Below, piece by piece: positions 1 through 11,803 of a DNA stretch of 20,745 nucleotides. The DNA lies in IMG/VR virus record IMGVR_UViG_3300022752_000468, positions 1 through 20,745 of that record. One strand, given 5' to 3'. Every line of letters begins with the position of its first letter. Positions within the stretch are counted from its first letter, which is position 1. The position numbers were made by a program, and so were the translations under genes. The notes under the pieces were generated by a model. That model was not told the DNA's origin. It searched no databases and worked only from the letters and a program-made list of their open reading frames with translations. This DNA is from a virus.

Positions 1-354
1 GGTGACTGTGACCGAGGTTTCTAGGTCGTAGATTCGGTCAATGAGCATACTGATTGGTTCTAGCAACTCACCTTCTCGTTCAGTCCAGTCGTGACCAGAA
101 GGTAGGTCACGGATGATACTGAGCGGGTTGAATTCAGCGACAGAGCCACCATTGGCTACTGTTCTGCTAGGTACAGCCTTGAGGACCGTACCAGCAAAGG
201 TGCTGATGTAGTTGCCGTCTGACTCATCAACTATCTGATGAGCCAGTTCTATGTCTCTGGCGTCCTTGGCTTCAAGGCAGTCAGGGCAGAGTTCTACTAG
301 CGCTTGGCACTGATAGCACATAGTTTGGATAGTGATGCCCAGCGGGTCTGACAT
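1..354 (-). CDS. Small CxxC zinc-ribbon-like protein (partial, C-terminus outside window)
   Basis: The reverse strand reads open from an ATG at 354-352 to the window edge, giving 118 codons and no stop, so the C-terminus is missing. A good ribosome binding site (GGAAAGGAA, 358-366) sits just upstream. The protein starts MSDPLGITIQTMCYQCQALV and has two CxxC pairs, C13/C16 and C23/C26, separated by six residues. This spacing is typical of a small zinc ribbon, so the N-terminus probably binds one Zn ion. The rest is acidic and mostly hydrophilic with no membrane segment. It is transcribed away from the structural operon, so it probably belongs to another (for example early or regulatory) transcription unit. 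I do not recognise the family. A DNA- or protein-binding role is only an inference from the cysteines. Confidence 0.7.
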   Translation of the reverse strand, partial: MSDPLGITIQTMCYQCQALVELCPDCLEAKDARDIELAHQIVDESDGNYISTFAGTVLKAVPSRTVANGGSVAEFNPLSIIRDLPSGHDWTEREGELLEPISMLIDRIYDLETSVTVT

Positions 355-366
355 AGGTTCCTTTCC

Positions 367-387
367 GATATAGATACTTTCTATATC
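367..387. repeat. Inverted repeat just upstream of the minus-strand gene
   Basis: GATATAG (367-373) and CTATATC (381-387) form a perfect 7-bp stem around a 7-nt loop. It abuts the ribosome binding site of the minus-strand gene, so it would lie in that gene's leader or be an operator for it. The sequence is A+T-rich and could overlap a -10 region. Confidence 0.5.
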
Positions 388-401
388 TACTATTCAGACC
401 T

Positions 402-415
402 GCGCCGATAGGCGC
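402..415. repeat. Short GC-rich hairpin
   Basis: GCGCC (402-406) and GGCGC (411-415) make a perfect 5-bp GC stem around the tetraloop GATA. No T-run follows on either strand, so it is not an ordinary terminator. Confidence 0.4.
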
Positions 416-453
416 TAGCCCCTGCTCAGGTACAGATTTATTAACAGCCTAGC

Positions 454-481
454 CCCCGCAGTATTTGTTTTTACGGCGGGG
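454..481. repeat. GC-rich inverted repeat with T-rich loop
   Basis: CCCCGC (454-459) pairs perfectly with GCGGGG (476-481). One more G-C pair (452/482) forms if C453 bulges. The 16-nt loop holds the T-rich stretch. A terminator would have the T-run after the stem, so this looks more like an operator or structural element. Confidence 0.4.
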
Positions 482-534
482 CAGATAGTATGTAGTCCAG
501 CATACTGACGGACTGTATCTGTACGGCGACAGCC

Positions 535-569
535 AAACAGGATGGGGTCTAGATGACCCCAGACTGTTT
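535..569. repeat. Long interrupted hairpin with tandem G/A mismatch
   Basis: The arms are AAACAG (535-540) with CTGTTT (564-569), and TGGGGTC (543-549) with GACCCCA (555-561), around the loop TAGAT. The two stems are separated by GA (541-542) facing GA (562-563). That arrangement allows tandem sheared G-A pairs, which are stable in RNA. This gives 13 Watson-Crick pairs in total. No T-run follows on either strand, so it is not a standard terminator. It could be an RNA element, operator or packaging-site landmark. Confidence 0.6.
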
Positions 570-681
570 AAAGTGGGGTTGAACTTCTATAGGTAACTCC
601 CAAAACTATTTTCCCGTACAAAGATAGCACCCCTGCACTGTCCTAGTTTGTCCTATTTTAGATAGCCTATTATGTGAGTTG

Positions 682-699
682 TATAACAGTTTTGTTATA
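682..699. repeat. AT-rich hairpin
   Basis: TATAACA (682-688) and TGTTATA (693-699) form a perfect 7-bp stem with loop GTTT. Both arms contain -10-like TATAAC/TTATAA strings, so this may be a promoter/operator palindrome rather than an RNA hairpin. Confidence 0.45.
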
Positions 700-701
700 A
701 A

Positions 702-726
702 CCGTTCGGAATGGCTGTTTGAACGG
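702..726. repeat. Inverted repeat CCGTTC/GAACGG
   Basis: CCGTTC (702-707) and GAACGG (721-726) are perfect 6-bp complements separated by 13 nt. The spacing suits either a hairpin or a dimeric repressor site. It lies just upstream of the candidate initiation region at 729-744. Confidence 0.4.
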
Positions 727-728
727 AT

Positions 729-744
729 TAATACTATATAGGGG
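729..744 (+). promoter_or_regulatory. Candidate promoter core upstream of terL
   Basis: TAATAC (729-734) is followed directly by TATATA (735-740) and GGGG (741-744). TATATA or TACTAT (732-737) could act as a -10 box, but no good -35 lies at 16-18 nt. The string resembles a T7 RNA polymerase promoter shortened by five internal bases, so it should not be taken as a functional T7-type site. Transcription starting at the G-run would give an RNA that begins with the 742-756 hairpin. The distance to terL is about 120 nt. Confidence 0.3.
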
Positions 745-756
745 CACAAAGTGCCC
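742..756. repeat. 6-bp hairpin with 3-nt loop
   Basis: GGGCAC (742-747), loop AAA, GTGCCC (751-756). The stem is perfect with an all-purine triloop. It sits immediately after the candidate promoter core. The shape (5-7 bp stem, 3-nt loop with a central purine) resembles the DNA hairpins known in N4 virion RNA polymerase promoters. A 5' mRNA-stabilising hairpin is the simpler reading. Confidence 0.55.
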
Positions 757-766
757 ACTGATGGTA

Positions 767-787
767 GCAAGGTCTTTAGGACCTTGC
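767..787. repeat. Strong 8-bp hairpin in the terL leader
   Basis: GCAAGGTC (767-774) pairs with GACCTTGC (780-787) around the loop TTTAG. GTA (764-766) can extend the stem with TAC (790-792) across a 2-nt bulge. No T-run follows. It would lie in the 5' untranslated leader of the terminase transcript if initiation is upstream. Confidence 0.55.
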
Positions 788-790
788 GTT

Positions 791-843
791 ACAGACTGTA
801 TCTACTGTCTGTTTCTAACTGTCTGTACTAACTGACAGTATCT
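791..843. repeat. CTGTCTGT and GAC(T/A)GTATCT repeats before terL
   Basis: ACTGTCTGT occurs at 804-812 and 818-826, with a 14-nt period. ACAGAC (791-796) is an inverted partner of GTCTGT (807-812). GACTGTATCT occurs at 794-803 and also at 511-520, and the variant GACAGTATCT occurs at 834-843. Three copies of a 10-mer in one control region suggest a protein-binding site (activator, terminase or replication protein). This is seen directly; the role is inferred. Confidence 0.45.
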
Positions 844-862
844 ATACAGATGGGACACTTCT

Positions 863-2749
863 GTGACTTTTCAGAAAGGTAAAGCCAACCCTAGGGCAGA
901 GGCTATGGCAGCCGCAAAGGCTAAAGTAATAGCCCTTGTCTCTGAAGGCTGGGCGCCTCATAAGGCGATGGCTGAGGCTGGTAAGCAACCCGACACTATC
1001 CGAATCTGGATGATGCGGGATAAGAAGTTTGCCGCTGACCTGACACAGGCAAAAGAAGACGCCAAAGAGCGTTCCTTGACCGCCCTGGGCATAGCCCGTG
1101 AAGATATAAGTTTTCCACAGTTCTCTGAGATGTTCTTAGAGCAGAAGGTCTTTCCCCACCATCAGGACTGGATTGACCTGCTAGAAGGTAACGAGCCTAG
1201 TTGGCTCCACCCAAGTATGATTTATGAGAAGGGCGACCCTAACCGCCTTCTTGTAAACGTGCCGCCTGAGCACGCCAAGTCCACCGTTATTACGGTGAAC
1301 TACTCTACTTACCGCATCGCACTAAATCCCAATGTCAGAATCATCGTAGTTTCTAAGACGTTGGTCAAAGCACGTGAGTTCGTGTATGCCATTAAACAAA
1401 GGTTAAGCCACCCGCGCTGGTTGAAGTTGCAGACAACATTTGGACCAGAAGGGGGATGGAAAGAAGATTCCGATACCTGGCGTGTTGACACCGTCTATTT
1501 GGGAAGCGATGCCCGTAATTCATCTGAGAAGGACCCGACGATTCAGGCGCTCGGTATGGGGGGTCAAATCTACGGTGCCCGTGCCGACCTCATCATTCTT
1601 GACGACTGTATTACCACTGCCAATGCTCACGAGTATGAGAAGCAGATTAACTGGCTACAAAAAGAAGTTATCACCCGTTTGGGTAAGAATGGCAAATTGC
1701 TAGTAGTTGGGACCCGAATTGCGCCGACAGACTTTTATAAAGAACTCCGTGACCCGAAGCATTGGTCGGGCGGTAAGAGCCCGTTCACTTACATGGGTAT
1801 GCCTGCCGTGCTGGCATATGCGGATAAACCAAAAGATTGGGAAACTCTCTGGGCTAAGTCGGACGTTCCGTGGGATGGCGATGATGAGACACCTGACGAG
1901 CAAGGGCTCTACCCGAAATGGGATGGACCGACACTAGCCAGACGTAGAGGAGAGGTGACTCCATCTACGTGGGCATTGGTCTATCAGCAAGAAGATGTCA
2001 CAGAAGATTCAATCTTCCCAGCAGAACTGGTGCAAGGTTCGCTGAATGGAATGCGTAAGCGTGGTCCGCTAAGACCAGGCGCTGCAGGTCATCCTAACCA
2101 AGTTGAGGGATATACCGTCATAGGCTTTGACCCTGCTATGGCAGGTAATGCTGCTTTTGTTGCTATGACCTACAACAGACACGATGGAAAGATTTACATA
2201 CTTGACTGCCTGAATATGGCAGAACCAACACCACAGAAGATTAGGCAGGCTATTGAGGAGTTTGTTCAGAAGTACAAGCCGCAAGAACTCCGCGTTGAAA
2301 TCAACGCCCACCAAAAAGCCTACTCCCTTGACTCAGACTTACACCAATGGCTCGCATCTTATGGTGTTCGCCTCAATGCTCACTTCACTGGAAAGAATAA
2401 GTGGGATACCAACTTCGGAGTCGCAGGAATGTCTACGCTCTTTGGAACTGTCCTCAACGGCAAGCACCAAAAGAACAACATCATTGAACTCCCAAGTACT
2501 GAAAATTCTGAAGGACTTAAGGCTTTAGTTCAACAACTTATTACGTGGAAGCCCAACACCAAAGGTAAGACTGACTGTGTGATGGCTATGTGGTTTGGTG
2601 TGCTGCGATGCCGAGAGTTTATGCAGCAGAACTCCTATGTTCAGAGATATGCCCACAACCGTTGGGCTACTAGAGCACAGGCACAAAAACGTTACTCAGT
2701 AAATCTAGACGAAGCCATTGCAGAGCAGTGGCAACAGACATACGGATAG
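863..2749 (+). CDS. terL: Terminase large subunit with N-terminal HTH-like segment
   Basis: This is the ATPase and nuclease of the DNA-packaging motor, which docks on the portal and cuts and translocates phage DNA. In the 628 residues, the Walker A-like motif is PPEHAKST (134-141), the Walker B is LIILDD (243-248) and a VGTR motif III is at 282-285. The RNase H-like nuclease domain starts near GFDPAMAG (421-428), with D423, probably E479, and D571 as metal-ligand candidates. The Walker A has Ala where Gly is usual before the Lys, as some phage terminases do. Residues 18-60 look like a helix-turn-helix as in small terminase subunits. No separate terS is seen in the window. The start used is GTG at 863 with a weak ribosome site. 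ATG 905 (residue 15), behind GGGCAGAGG, is a good alternative and keeps all the domains. Confidence 0.95.
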   Translation: MTFQKGKANPRAEAMAAAKAKVIALVSEGWAPHKAMAEAGKQPDTIRIWMMRDKKFAADLTQAKEDAKERSLTALGIAREDISFPQFSEMFLEQKVFPHHQDWIDLLEGNEPSWLHPSMIYEKGDPNRLLVNVPPEHAKSTVITVNYSTYRIALNPNVRIIVVSKTLVKAREFVYAIKQRLSHPRWLKLQTTFGPEGGWKEDSDTWRVDTVYLGSDARNSSEKDPTIQALGMGGQIYGARADLIILDDCITTANAHEYEKQINWLQKEVITRLGKNGKLLVVGTRIAPTDFYKELRDPKHWSGGKSPFTYMGMPAVLAYADKPKDWETLWAKSDVPWDGDDETPDEQGLYPKWDGPTLARRRGEVTPSTWALVYQQEDVTEDSIFPAELVQGSLNGMRKRGPLRPGAAGHPNQVEGYTVIGFDPAMAGNAAFVAMTYNRHDGKIYILDCLNMAEPTPQKIRQAIEEFVQKYKPQELRVEINAHQKAYSLDSDLHQWLASYGVRLNAHFTGKNKWDTNFGVAGMSTLFGTVLNGKHQKNNIIELPSTENSEGLKALVQQLITWKPNTKGKTDCVMAMWFGVLRCREFMQQNSYVQRYAHNRWATRAQAQKRYSVNLDEAIAEQWQQTYG

Positions 2750-6196: not shown

Positions 6197-9100
6197 ATGT
6201 CAAACCAAGGTTTTATTCCAGTAACTATTGATTTAGATACTTTAGAAAATACACCAGAAATGATTCAAGTCAGAAACGCTGGTGCATTTACACCAGAAGA
6301 GTCTGCACGTTGGAATGGTATGGCTAGGTTAACCAACCTTAATACTTTTTTAATGACTGACCCTGACATCAATAATGCAAGAAATACTTTTAATGCTCTA
6401 GACCCTACAATACAAAAGGCTTTGATTGATTTTAATCCAGAGGCTGAGTATGCAAAACTTGATGAAAAAGGATTTTTAAGTAAATTTACAAATAATTTAT
6501 TTATAGTAAAATTGCTTAGGGAGCCTTTGCCGACCCTTGTATCGGCAGCCGAAACCTACACAAAGGCTGTAGAAAATACCGCTCTTAATGCTTTAGAGTT
6601 TAGCAAAAAAATTAGAGAAACAGGCTTAAGCATTTTTGGCGGACCAGATGCTTTTGAAAAAGTAACTAATCCAGATTATTGGACTACGGGTTGGAATGCC
6701 TACAATAAATGGAATGAAATAGAAACAGATAAATTAGATAACTTTTATAATAAAGCAACTGGTGTATTTGTAAGAGGCATTCTTGATGGAAAAAATCAAT
6801 TAGAGATTTTCCGTGAGTATGGTGCTATTGATGAAGATATGGTTAACATATATTCTAAATTCGGAACACCAGAATTTGATGAAATTGCAAACCGTTATTC
6901 TCGTCAAAAAATAAATCTTGGAAGCAGGATTGTTGACTGGGCTGGAAGATTTGCTCCATTAAAAGAAAACCCAACTGCAACTGATACTTTACGTGAGGCT
7001 ATTGCTGCTTCTGTTCTTAGTATCGGGGGTATGCGGAATGTTACAAGAAATAAGTATGGCGAATTTGTAACAGAAAAATTATTTAAACCTGATGAGTATG
7101 GAGACCCAGGCACAGGTTTAGATATAGTTGCACTTGGAGTAGTGGACCCTTTAACCTATGTTACTTTTGGCGGGTCAAGGGGTATGGCTCTTACTGCGTC
7201 TGCTAAAACAACAGCAGAATTACAAAATGCAGCAAATGCTGCAGCGCTAATAAGAAGTGTTGAACAATTATTTACAGACCCTGCATTTTCTGTAAAAAAT
7301 AGTAATTTTATTAATGACCTTAATACTTACAGAAATGCTCTAGATAAAAAAGATTTAACTACGGCTGGTGCTGCAAGAGTAAAAATATCATTAGACCACC
7401 CTGAATATGATGATGATGCGTGGCTAGGTCTGCTTATGAAGAGCACGGTTGTTAAAGGCGATAAAGAAGTTCCTATTACTGATATGGATACTTACTTTGA
7501 GTTTTTTAAATCGGGTCAGTATGTTAACTCGCTAGTAAATGGAACTGTAAATAACATTATTACCGCCCGTGAAGGTGTGGTTGCTTTACAGAAACGTCAA
7601 AATTTATTTGTTAATAATTTAAGAAAATACAGTGCTAAAATATTTCAAGGCTTAGACACTGGTGTAGTAATAGGTGCTAAACCTATGCCTGGTGAAATTG
7701 TAGATACCTGGGCTGATTTTGAAAAAACAATTTTGGCTAGACCTGTTTTAGACGTTGCTGGCGCTCCAGAAGAAATGTTAGACGAAATTGTAAAAAGCGA
7801 AACTTTGCTAAACAGTCTTACAAGACCAAAAGAATATGGCATTAAAAATGTTAATAGATTATTTGGTGAGTTATTCACAACAATGCCAACTTCTCGTGGT
7901 CAAATTTTTTGGTCAGATGCTCTTGTAGATAAAGGGCTAGATAATTTAAGAAGATATGCACGCCTTATCACAGGAGATAGATTGCGTGCTGAATTTATAA
8001 CTCAGTTATATAAATCTTCAACCAGAAACGAACGAATCAACATAATGTATAATTTAGATAAGTTATACTTACAGGAAATAGCAGGTGCTAGTTCTACAAA
8101 TGCAGGTGTTGAACTTACGCAAAGCATTTTAAATTCTAGATACATTGGTTCTGAGTTGGCAAGCGTTGCAAATTATTTAGAAGATGTTCCAGATGTATTT
8201 AAAAATCTTAACGATGTAGATACACTACCGCCAGGTGCCAGTGCATTTATGCACCTAACTGATGGTATTACATTATTTGATTTTGACGACGTACTGCAAA
8301 AAGTTTATGGCAGTATGGGGAAGCCAGGAACAAGAGCCGTAAGTTCTACTGAATATAAATATGGTCCCACAACATATAAAAATATATTTAAGAAACTTGG
8401 GTATTTATGGTGGACTGGTTCTACTAATAATGAAATATCTAGAATTATAAATCGTGGTCTAGTATTTTTATACCTCTTTCCTAAACTAGGTGTTAAAACC
8501 GCAACTGACGAAGCCACGGTTTTAGCAAATGTTTCTAGTCCTGATTTGTTGGTTAATGGAATTGCTGGTAAGGGTCGTGCCTTAAGCGCAATTAATGTTG
8601 CTATTAAGGGTGACACTAGTTTTCAAGGTCCTGTAAAGTCAATATTGCTTGATTTGTTTGGCAAGAACCCTGCTAAATTTGCAGATGCTGCACAACGCAA
8701 GGAATTAACTTCTATGAAAATGGTAGAAATTCCTTTAAGAGACCCCGACACTGGCAAAGAAATAATTCAAAAAGAACTTTTGTCTGCTGAAGAATTTTTT
8801 GGCAAACCACCAGAAGAAATTTTGGTAGACGAAGCAATTGCTAAATATGGAAAAGTTCTTTCTCCAAAAGAAAAACAACGGTTTGCTGAGCATTTTATGC
8901 TAGAAGGAGATACCGTAAGTGATGCAATAATTGGTTCATCAGTTGCCTCTACTTATGGCGATTCACTTGCACCAGCAACAAGACTTGCTAAAGAAATTTA
9001 TGGCAAAAGTCCCCTTACTAGAGCATTTGATTCACTAGAACTTAAAGTGCTATCTAAACCATACCTAGTCAAGGCAAATAAATTAAATGAATTTGAAAGA

Positions 9101-11803
9101 CAATTTGCTCAGTACAGTTATTTTTATAAGTTATTTGCAAAAAATGACAAGTATGGTGTAGAGCCTACTCGTATATTTATGAACTACAATGCTTTAAAAA
9201 CTGAGCAGGATGTTCAAGGTTTTGTAAATACGATGATGGGCTGGTTTGGTTGGACAAAAGAACCTACTGCCAAGACTATTGCTAAGGCAATTAGGATAAA
9301 TGATGAGTTTGGGCAGGTTCAACAACTTCGTGCTGCTGGAAAATCCGAAGAAGAAATAAGTAAAATAATTATTAAAAATATGGCTATTGAAATGCGCTAT
9401 ATTTTTCACGGTGGTTCTGGCTACAATCAAAAATTAGTTGATTTGTTACGACAGAAAGCATCAGAAACTGTAGAAAAGATTGATAAGTCACAAAGAATTG
9501 CCGATGCTAAAATGGCACAGCGTGAACGCGCAGGTGCTGAAGAAGTAATTAGCGACGTTGAATTAGCAAGAAGACAAAAATATTATCGTGAGGCAACTGC
9601 CTGGAGAACAATAGTTGGAAAGTTAAACTGGGAAGAATTTGAAGAGGCAACAAAAGGTTTTGTCATCAAAGGCGAAATTAAAACAGATGTTGCTTTTCCT
9701 GAAGTTTTAAAAGTTGCTAAAGAAGCAGGTGATATTAAGTCCCGTGCTACAAATGCTATTGCTACAGGATTTAGAGCAATGGACCGTACTAGCAATGACC
9801 TTACACGTTCCGATGTTTACTTCTTAAAAGTGCTTGAAGAAAGAGAAAAGTTAGAAGCAAATGAAGAATTATATACCAACTATCTTATTTCTCAAGGCGT
9901 TGACAAAGAAAATGCTTTAGTTCAATCTGCTGCTGTAATGGCTAATCAAGCAAGATATAACGCTGCAAATGATATGTTAAAGTATGTAGATAATCCTGCA
10001 TTGCGTTCTCAGTTAGCGTTTAATATGCGAGTGGTTGGTCGTTTTATTCGTGCTACTGAAGATTTTGCTAAGAGAAGTTTGCGTTGGATGCTAAAACATC
10101 CTACGTCTATTCCTTATAGAATAGGTCATTTGAGTCACGCAACAGATGGTTCTGGTGTTACATACACCGATGATGATGGTAATACATATGTAGTAATTCC
10201 TAATGATGGTGTTTTTTGGCAAGACATAGCACCAGCAATAGTAATGCTTGGAACTCCTCAAGGATTGATTACTGCAGGTAAAATAGGTATTGATGGTCTG
10301 CGCGGTCAATCTATTAAAGATAGTCCTTACTGGGGCTTCTTTAAACAGGTTGAGTGGAATCAATACACAATGAAATTGTCTATTTTGAATCCATCTTTGA
10401 TGGAAAACTCTGGCGTTTATACATTGTTGGGTCCTAATATAGGACTACCAGTTATTGCTATCAGAGATTTTCTTGTAGGTAAATTAGCCCAAAGTCAACA
10501 AAGTCCAGAACTTGCTCAGTTTGGTTTATCAATAGATAATATTTTACTCGGCGAAATTTCTGACGACACCACAATTTGGCGTTCTATAATTCCACCTGCT
10601 GTAAATAATTTCTTTAAATCTCTTGACGGAGAATATAAAGATAATCAAGGTGCAATTGCTGCATATCAGGCTATTGCCTATATGCAATATATCAATCCTA
10701 AAAAAGCAGAAGACTTCTTAAATGAAACTGGAGATGTAGACCCAGGTAAAGCACAAGAATTTTTGAATGAATGGCGAATTCAAGTGTCTAACGTACTGGC
10801 ACAAAAGGCTGGATTTAATACAATCTATGGTGCTCCTATAGCACTAGGTACTCCTGAAATTTCTAAATACCTGAGAGATAATGGAACTGTTACTTTTACA
10901 AAAGAGTATGGAGACATACTTAGGGCTGTATTAGATTTCAATCAGGAGAATGGTTTCTTTATTAAAGACCCCTATGCAACGGCAATTTCTCTGCACGCTT
11001 TAGAAAGACCTGGCAAACTAATATTTCAGGTACCTAAAAATCTTAGAGAGACACCAATAGCAATAAACTATACAATGGAAACTTATCTATGGGGTGTAAA
11101 AAATAGAAAGTTTATCCAGAAATATCCCAACGCTAGTTGGGTATTTGCTCCCAATGTTGGTGAGTATGACCCTAGAGTTATTGCCTATATGGAAGCAGCC
11201 GACTTAATACCTGTAGGTAAGAATCCATTTGATGATAACAATGCAGCATTAAGGTCTTATATTGAAAAAACTACTGTTGCTAAACAGTTGTATGAATATT
11301 TCCAATATGATAAAGAGGTTGAAAGACTACTTAACGACCCTAATAATCCTCGTAGGAATTTTGTAGATTATCGTACAGAAATAATGCGAAAGGCTGATGT
11401 AGAAAAGGAAGCCTTAAAGTTAAGTAATCCTCTGTTGAAGCACGTATTGGAAACGCAGAAGGTTATAACTACAGAAGAACTAAGAAATAACTTTAATGAA
11501 TTAAAAACAATTGTTAATCAAAATCTATTTCCAAAAGAAGTAGGTTTAGACACTAGAGATTTGTTAAAAATTATGGTTCGTTCTGCATCTGAATTACTTG
11601 TTGTTACAGAAAACAATGCAGTGGCTAGACAGTATCTAGGAGATACAGAATTACGGCAGCAAGTAGAAGTTATGTATTCTCAATATCAAGATATTGCTAG
11701 ACAAAATCCTATTTTAGGTCAAGCCTGGACAGCAATTATTAAGCCAATGTTAGACAAGACATACGATTATCCAATTCAAATAGTAAGAAAGCCTGGTGAT
11801 TAA
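6197..11803 (+). CDS. Giant 1,868-aa putative internal virion or ejection protein
   Basis: This single open frame of 5.6 kb is the largest gene in the window. It begins with ATG TCA AAC, with no clear ribosome site, so translation probably depends on the gene just upstream. It ends in TAATG with the next gene. The product is mostly helical by eye, with charged coiled-coil-like stretches such as RIADAKMAQRERAGAEEV near residue 1100. It has a basic amphipathic stretch FNMRVVGRFIRATEDFAKRS (from about residue 1275) and hydrophobic patches (about 1338-1366 and 1410-1430). I found no polymerase, lysozyme, peptidase or kinase motif by eye. Large proteins encoded in the head block of short-tailed phages (T7 gp16, P22 gp16, N4 virion RNA polymerase) are packaged and ejected with DNA. 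That comparison is by size and place only. The gene is very A+T-rich (15 G/C of 60 at 7261-7320). Confidence 0.85.
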   Translation: MSNQGFIPVTIDLDTLENTPEMIQVRNAGAFTPEESARWNGMARLTNLNTFLMTDPDINNARNTFNALDPTIQKALIDFNPEAEYAKLDEKGFLSKFTNNLFIVKLLREPLPTLVSAAETYTKAVENTALNALEFSKKIRETGLSIFGGPDAFEKVTNPDYWTTGWNAYNKWNEIETDKLDNFYNKATGVFVRGILDGKNQLEIFREYGAIDEDMVNIYSKFGTPEFDEIANRYSRQKINLGSRIVDWAGRFAPLKENPTATDTLREAIAASVLSIGGMRNVTRNKYGEFVTEKLFKPDEYGDPGTGLDIVALGVVDPLTYVTFGGSRGMALTASAKTTAELQNAANAAALIRSVEQLFTDPAFSVKNSNFINDLNTYRNALDKKDLTTAGAARVKISLDHPEYDDDAWLGLLMKSTVVKGDKEVPITDMDTYFEFFKSGQYVNSLVNGTVNNIITAREGVVALQKRQNLFVNNLRKYSAKIFQGLDTGVVIGAKPMPGEIVDTWADFEKTILARPVLDVAGAPEEMLDEIVKSETLLNSLTRPKEYGIKNVNRLFGELFTTMPTSRGQIFWSDALVDKGLDNLRRYARLITGDRLRAEFITQLYKSSTRNERINIMYNLDKLYLQEIAGASSTNAGVELTQSILNSRYIGSELASVANYLEDVPDVFKNLNDVDTLPPGASAFMHLTDGITLFDFDDVLQKVYGSMGKPGTRAVSSTEYKYGPTTYKNIFKKLGYLWWTGSTNNEISRIINRGLVFLYLFPKLGVKTATDEATVLANVSSPDLLVNGIAGKGRALSAINVAIKGDTSFQGPVKSILLDLFGKNPAKFADAAQRKELTSMKMVEIPLRDPDTGKEIIQKELLSAEEFFGKPPEEILVDEAIAKYGKVLSPKEKQRFAEHFMLEGDTVSDAIIGSSVASTYGDSLAPATRLAKEIYGKSPLTRAFDSLELKVLSKPYLVKANKLNEFERQFAQYSYFYKLFAKNDKYGVEPTRIFMNYNALKTEQDVQGFVNTMMGWFGWTKEPTAKTIAKAIRINDEFGQVQQLRAAGKSEEEISKIIIKNMAIEMRYIFHGGSGYNQKLVDLLRQKASETVEKIDKSQRIADAKMAQRERAGAEEVISDVELARRQKYYREATAWRTIVGKLNWEEFEEATKGFVIKGEIKTDVAFPEVLKVAKEAGDIKSRATNAIATGFRAMDRTSNDLTRSDVYFLKVLEEREKLEANEELYTNYLISQGVDKENALVQSAAVMANQARYNAANDMLKYVDNPALRSQLAFNMRVVGRFIRATEDFAKRSLRWMLKHPTSIPYRIGHLSHATDGSGVTYTDDDGNTYVVIPNDGVFWQDIAPAIVMLGTPQGLITAGKIGIDGLRGQSIKDSPYWGFFKQVEWNQYTMKLSILNPSLMENSGVYTLLGPNIGLPVIAIRDFLVGKLAQSQQSPELAQFGLSIDNILLGEISDDTTIWRSIIPPAVNNFFKSLDGEYKDNQGAIAAYQAIAYMQYINPKKAEDFLNETGDVDPGKAQEFLNEWRIQVSNVLAQKAGFNTIYGAPIALGTPEISKYLRDNGTVTFTKEYGDILRAVLDFNQENGFFIKDPYATAISLHALERPGKLIFQVPKNLRETPIAINYTMETYLWGVKNRKFIQKYPNASWVFAPNVGEYDPRVIAYMEAADLIPVGKNPFDDNNAALRSYIEKTTVAKQLYEYFQYDKEVERLLNDPNNPRRNFVDYRTEIMRKADVEKEALKLSNPLLKHVLETQKVITTEELRNNFNELKTIVNQNLFPKEVGLDTRDLLKIMVRSASELLVVTENNAVARQYLGDTELRQQVEVMYSQYQDIARQNPILGQAWTAIIKPMLDKTYDYPIQIVRKPGD

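Follow-up and report, generated by a model that had tools for sequence, protein, structure and literature searches.

Compensated hairpins in the predicted leaders of both divergent mRNAs beside the terminase gene of a phage related to 'Ca. Planktophila' phages

In the ompA and papA transcripts of E. coli, a short stem-loop lies a few bases from the 5′ end and its structure is kept over its sequence; the leader of T7 gene 10 also carries an mRNA-stabilising 5′ stem-loop. A 5′ hairpin stabilises bacterial mRNA (PMC3997798). In phage HK022, two put RNAs with two stem-loops each lie downstream of the early promoters (PMC9378689). The SAS/ESAS elements of cluster K mycobacteriophages are inverted repeats located just upstream of translation starts, with many conserved copies of SAS per genome (PMC3203893). 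The Beephvirinae (cluster BF) of Streptomyces are podoviruses for which terminal repeats of 253 and 265 bp have been published (PMC9753666, PMC13097060).

Here, we analyzed a 20.7-kb virus record (in the following called the window), in which a 508-nt gap separates two back-to-back gene blocks. We give about an even chance to the reading that this gap is a divergent control region with compensatory leader hairpins on both mRNAs, which probably protect or present the 5′ ends. As in ompA and papA, a short hairpin lies a few bases from a (predicted) 5′ end and structure is kept over sequence, but in the window such hairpins are found on both divergent phage transcripts, each with a second hairpin, and the starts are predicted. 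As with HK022 putL and putR, two phage promoters, in the window predicted ones, are each followed by two stem-loops; unlike in putL and putR, the two sides have no evident sequence in common and the stems are free to vary. Like SAS, the window has inverted repeats just upstream of an actinophage translation start, but its leftward hairpin occurs in one leader and with variable letters. Upstream of terL, the Streptomyces Beephvirinae carry in succession an edge motif, two CRP-like palindromes, a TATA box and two hairpins, both with paired replacements. The window resembles this region in its end motif, CRP-like palindrome, promoter box, two leader hairpins and terL, whereas the Beephvirinae have two CRP-like sites, other hairpin sequences and a demonstrated terminal repeat where that of the window is putative. 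The layout of end motif, promoter, hairpins and terL, often with a CRP-like site, is common to these phages and the 'Ca. Planktophila' phages. We found no description of such an arrangement in the open-access literature. The features are as follows (positions in the window):

1 to 354, minus strand: leftward gene, function unassigned (open reading frame, start codon 354-352)
359 to 364, minus strand: Shine-Dalgarno-like AAAGGA of the leftward gene, seen in the sequence immediately 3′ of the hairpin at 367-387
367 to 387, minus strand: leftward leader hairpin B, GATATAGA[AAGTA]TCTATATC, with paired forms in relatives
402 to 415, minus strand: leftward leader hairpin A, GCGCCTATCGGCGC read leftward, with paired replacements in few sequences
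454 to 481, no strand assigned: inverted repeat with loop, seen only in the window and near relatives
535 to 569, no strand assigned: inverted repeat overlapping the edge motif; in an alignment of 44 relatives its pairing is lost and its right half, GACCCCAGACTGTTTAAA, is kept
555 to 572, plus strand: GACCCCAGACTGTTTAAA (also given as GACCCCAGAGTGTTTAAA), probable terminal-repeat/packaging edge motif, conserved in relatives
608 to 620, plus strand: conserved ATTTTCCCGTACA between the end motif and the promoter, in 62 loci with one copy each
673 to 688, plus strand: CRP/GlxR-like palindrome TGTGAGTTGTATAACA, overlapping the repeat at 682-699
703 to 733, plus strand: probable promoter core CGTTCG-N4-GGCTGTTTGAAC(R)G(R)TTAATA, nearly invariant, covering the repeat at 702-726
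739 to 743, plus strand: TAGRG, a conserved region where transcription is predicted to start (G741/R742), immediately 5′ of hairpin I
742 to 756, plus strand: rightward leader hairpin I, GGGCAC[AAA]GTGCCC, with 16 distinct forms
764 to 792, plus strand: rightward leader hairpin II, consisting of the stem at 767-787 plus GTA...TAC closing pairs
791 to 806, plus strand: segment ACAGACTGTATCTACT, conserved in relatives just 3′ of hairpin II
863 to 2749, plus strand: terL, encoding the terminase large subunit and opening the rightward block (phrog_38, 1.5e-66)

The leftward gene had no Pfam or PHROG match in profile searches, and a homologue lies upstream of terL in ~48 relatives. Genes for the portal and the major head protein lie downstream of terL. 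The TerL N-terminus (863-1080) has a helix-turn-helix-like look, and no separate small terminase gene is seen upstream of terL in the window. Further downstream, positions 6197-11803 encode a protein of 1868 amino acids without a Pfam or PHROG match. A short upstream reading frame at 850-882 was dropped, as its stop position differs among relatives.

Relatives were collected by TerL search, yielding 80 close loci and further relatives, to which we added two sets of 80 loci each, one centered on Planktophila phage E7 and the other on the Streptomyces Beephvirinae; near-full-length relatives measure ~39 kb. The records OX376640 and OX376641 are the 'Ca. Planktophila' phages LanE43AprE7 and F5 (PMC10202952). 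Their TerL is ~62% identical to that of the window, and a related freshwater actinobacterium is therefore the likely host. TerL of Streptomyces Beephvirinae is ~45% identical. The window phage is related to those infecting 'Ca. Planktophila', which belongs to the freshwater Actinobacteria, and at a greater distance to podoviruses of Streptomyces. A search for a host or prophage contig bearing such a TerL found none.

An earlier note on this DNA had described the gap as a control region adjoining the terminase gene, which is borne out, and had listed eight inverted repeats at 367-387, 402-415, 454-481, 535-569, 682-699, 702-726, 742-756 and 767-787, all of which we recovered. Their number is beyond chance. 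Perfect stems of ≥6 bp with loops of 3-20 number 10 in the 508-nt region, compared with a mean of 1.95 over 300 dinucleotide shuffles (10 reached in 0/300) and an average of 2.7 in coding stretches of equal length. Stems of at least 8 bp number 2 in the region and 0.12 in the shuffles, and the folding energy has a z of -7.7 on the plus strand and -5.6 on the minus strand. Further stems, absent from the earlier list, lie at 487-506, 791-812 and 822-850. In relatives, pairing is kept at 742-756, 767-787, 402-415 and 367-387, but not at 702-726, 682-699 and 535-569. The remark that no T-run follows the stems is right in general; an exception is 543-561, which has a weak T-rich tail when read leftward. 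On the relevant strands, no GC-rich stem with a T-run was found, in agreement with the view that these are not ordinary terminators. The three copies of GAC(T/A)GTATCT are all present, but the copy at 794-803 alone is conserved; its 13-mer has one copy in each of 45 loci and two in none. The repressor array proposed for this decamer is therefore unsupported, since the copies are not conserved as an array. As to an origin, another of the proposed options, the region contains no DnaA-box match. Searches of Rfam with the window and 14 other loci gave no match above the gathering score (best sub-threshold E 2.5).

On the terL side, the 16 distinct forms of hairpin I begin 0-4 nt past the junction of the conserved TA and G at the predicted start; some lineages, among them L078, L079 and L094, have a weak hairpin or none. 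Hairpin II was tabulated in 45 sequences. Its 8-bp stem is 100% paired in 37/37 distinct aligned relatives, in which 99.2% of the cells of the whole structure are paired, compared with 25-44% for slid versions. Both partners have changed in five of its pairs, and covariation scores 0.208 versus 0.081 when shuffled (0/500). At least 12 changes in the stem core map onto the TerL tree, a count that is uncorrected for kinship and in which recombination possibly has a share. As MAFFT columns misplace pairs in hairpin I and in the Planktophila clade, pairs were counted there by structure in a script.

On the opposite side, relatives have ~20 distinct paired forms of hairpin B, immediately 5′ of the leftward gene's Shine-Dalgarno sequence, and the order hairpin - xgAAAGG - ATG is found there again. 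Hairpin A is replaced in few sequences by GCGAACCGAAGGTTCGC (L039), GCGCCTACGGCGC (L054) or GCGCCTAAAGGCGC (L145). In two near-full-length relatives, a hairpin before the Shine-Dalgarno sequence was not seen as a genome-wide element.

The 'Ca. Planktophila' phage clade provided a wider comparison. Here, 32 distinct sequences, mostly perfectly paired, have a first hairpin that begins 0-4 nt past the TTATAT box. In hairpin III of this clade, the loop TAATATATAAA is kept and the stem is compensated. The second hairpin shows possible alternative or pseudoknot pairings, e.g., of GAACTTGC with GCAAGTTC; the terL leaders concerned are L258, L260, L289, L306 and L325.

The kinds of mismatch bear on the strand on which these stems act, in counts that are small and raw, ignore kinship and come in several cases from our own scripts and hand selection. 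Hairpin B, on the minus strand, has 9 G.U against 1 A.C in a hand count of the ~20-form subset (12 against 5 in the whole list), and hairpin III of the Planktophila clade has 5 against 1. This excess of G.U over A.C favors action at the RNA level. The first hairpin of the Planktophila clade has 0 G.U, 0 A.C and 8 other mismatches among 233 pairs. Wobble pairs are nearly absent from hairpins I and II within the clade of the window itself, where such counts do not support action as RNA and selection at the DNA level is possible. Considering their position together with the wobble counts in two hairpins, we regard it as very probable that the hairpins act as RNA leader structures.

The following course of events would agree with these observations. 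The terminase and structural genes would be transcribed rightward from ~741-742, with the promoter core at 703-733; most relatives have in addition a CRP/GlxR-like site centered ~61 bp upstream of the start. Both divergent mRNAs would open with short hairpins, 742-756 and 767-787 on the right and 402-415 and 367-387 on the left, where the hairpin at 367-387 ends just before the Shine-Dalgarno sequence. Selection would act on the pairing and not on the letters. The hairpins may close the 5′ ends of long mRNAs against 5′-end-dependent decay, and those on the left may also present the ribosome site. The compensatory pairing by which a 5′-stabilizing stem-loop is recognized was found. That end protection is the main role is our assessment at somewhat less than even chance. 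A more specific role beside end protection is suggested by the conserved sequence at 791-806 and by the loop of hairpin III, which is invariant. Most likely, the hairpins shape the starts of mRNAs rather than end transcription or package DNA.

One alternative is antitermination by RNA alone, in which the hairpins of both transcripts would bind RNA polymerase and cause read-through of terminators, as described for HK022 putL and putR. Two hairpins per transcript, on both divergent transcripts and near the predicted starts, as well as the long rightward block, would suit this mechanism. However, putL and putR share sequence and their unpaired bases matter (PMC9378689), whereas the stems in the window vary freely. 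Its left and right leaders have no evident common sequence, and a repeat search of the region returned short matches only. We consider this explanation unlikely. Slightly less likely still is a version in which the hairpin pairs form a new class of polymerase-modifying leaders in actinobacterial phages, conferring protein-free antitermination on both transcripts through shape and position.

Equally unlikely as antitermination on the HK022 model is a role of the palindromes at the DNA level, in packaging or in forming a terminal repeat at the genome end. The packaging site among the earlier options has some basis in the motif at 555-572, as GACCCCAGACTGTTTAAA resembles ACCC(C/G)(A/G)GGGTTGTTAA of Streptomyces Beephvirinae. 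There, the motif begins ~39 bp before the right edge of the terminal repeat, which falls between GGAGTG and AGTCCC (PMC9753666, PMC13097060), and repeats of 253-264 bp are directly visible in three records. The near absence of wobble pairs from both rightward hairpins in the clade of the window would fit DNA elements as well. Yet the four compensated stems lie in the predicted mRNA leaders, off the motif. Those on the right are ~170-215 bp downstream of it, within the predicted leader, and the palindrome at 535-569 that does overlap the motif is not kept as such. The wobble counts in two other hairpins point to RNA, and the contig ends of relatives give no independent support for fixed ends: two relatives have contig overlaps of 127 bp, another has one of 344 bp at 94.5%, and one has none. 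Contig starts 364-377 nt upstream of terL were set aside as a physical end, as they come from a few near-identical strains and lie in a variable stretch. The motif itself suggests that the divergent region, besides opening both mRNAs with leader hairpins, probably also adjoins a genome end; the odds that a terminal-repeat edge lies near 555-600 in the window phage are roughly balanced.

The remaining palindromes behave differently from the leader stems. The outer pair of 702-726 is broken (AACAGG) in L078, L079, L106 and L178 and the letters are nearly invariant, so this repeat is conserved as sequence and not by pairing; it is probably a DNA element, the promoter core, whose sequence at 703-733 occurs once per genome. 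At 682-699, the conserved object is the palindrome TGTGA-N6-TNACA and not the stem. The form TGTKA-N6-TNAC is kept in 34/47 nonredundant relatives, at 22.5 bp (28) or 18.5 bp (6) from CGTTCG, and is absent in 13/47. In two near-full-length relatives, this site is the only exact GTGA-N6-TCAC within 39 kb. Its center lies 60.5-61.5 bp from the predicted start in the window, and in Beephvirinae-like soil phages the nearer CRP-like site is most often 49.5 bp from the -10 box (17 with a recognizable box), as expected of a class I CRP site at -61.5. CRP-type activation in most relatives may be put at one chance in two. CRP/GlxR-like palindromes also occur upstream of terL in Streptomyces and soil Beephvirinae-like phages (L225 1-660, L327-L404), often two of them ~55 bp apart. 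A phage-encoded CRP was considered and rejected: no HTH_Crp_2 match was found in 11 phage records, with a positive control.

That the palindromes are operators bound by proteins in DNA would suit 702-726 and the TGTGA-N6-TNACA site, with their invariant letters and nearly fixed spacing. It does not fit 367-387, 742-756 and 767-787, in which the letters vary and the pairing stays; we judge this explanation a little less likely than packaging elements. Hairpin promoters, the last of the earlier options, are very improbable in the form used by the N4 virion RNA polymerase, for although the hairpins lie close to the predicted start of the rightward genes, their stem letters are free to change, nine long relative contigs gave no PF00940 match for a T7-like or N4-like polymerase (a weak result, as control genomes likewise had none), and the relatives encode a sigma-like factor instead (PMC10202952). 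This factor is present in E7 and F5 (Sigma70_r4_2) and in Kumquat, and tblastn found homologues of ~38% identity in two phages closely related to that of the window. Sigma-like proteins lie at L228 36477-37160, L236 17927-17307 and L238 2292-1669; gene 68 of Kumquat, annotated as helix-turn-helix only, also matches Sigma70_r4_2.

If the reading with leader hairpins on both mRNAs is true, widespread phages of freshwater and soil Actinobacteria would share a compact module of genome end, promoter and leader, in which an RNA shape without a curated RNA family would be conserved across very different sequences. In that case, the phages may also sense the CRP/GlxR (cAMP) state of the host at the terminase promoter. 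The arrangement would provide a concrete and testable parts list for how genes are controlled in Nanopelagicales phages, now that a host of this group is in culture and phages are available.
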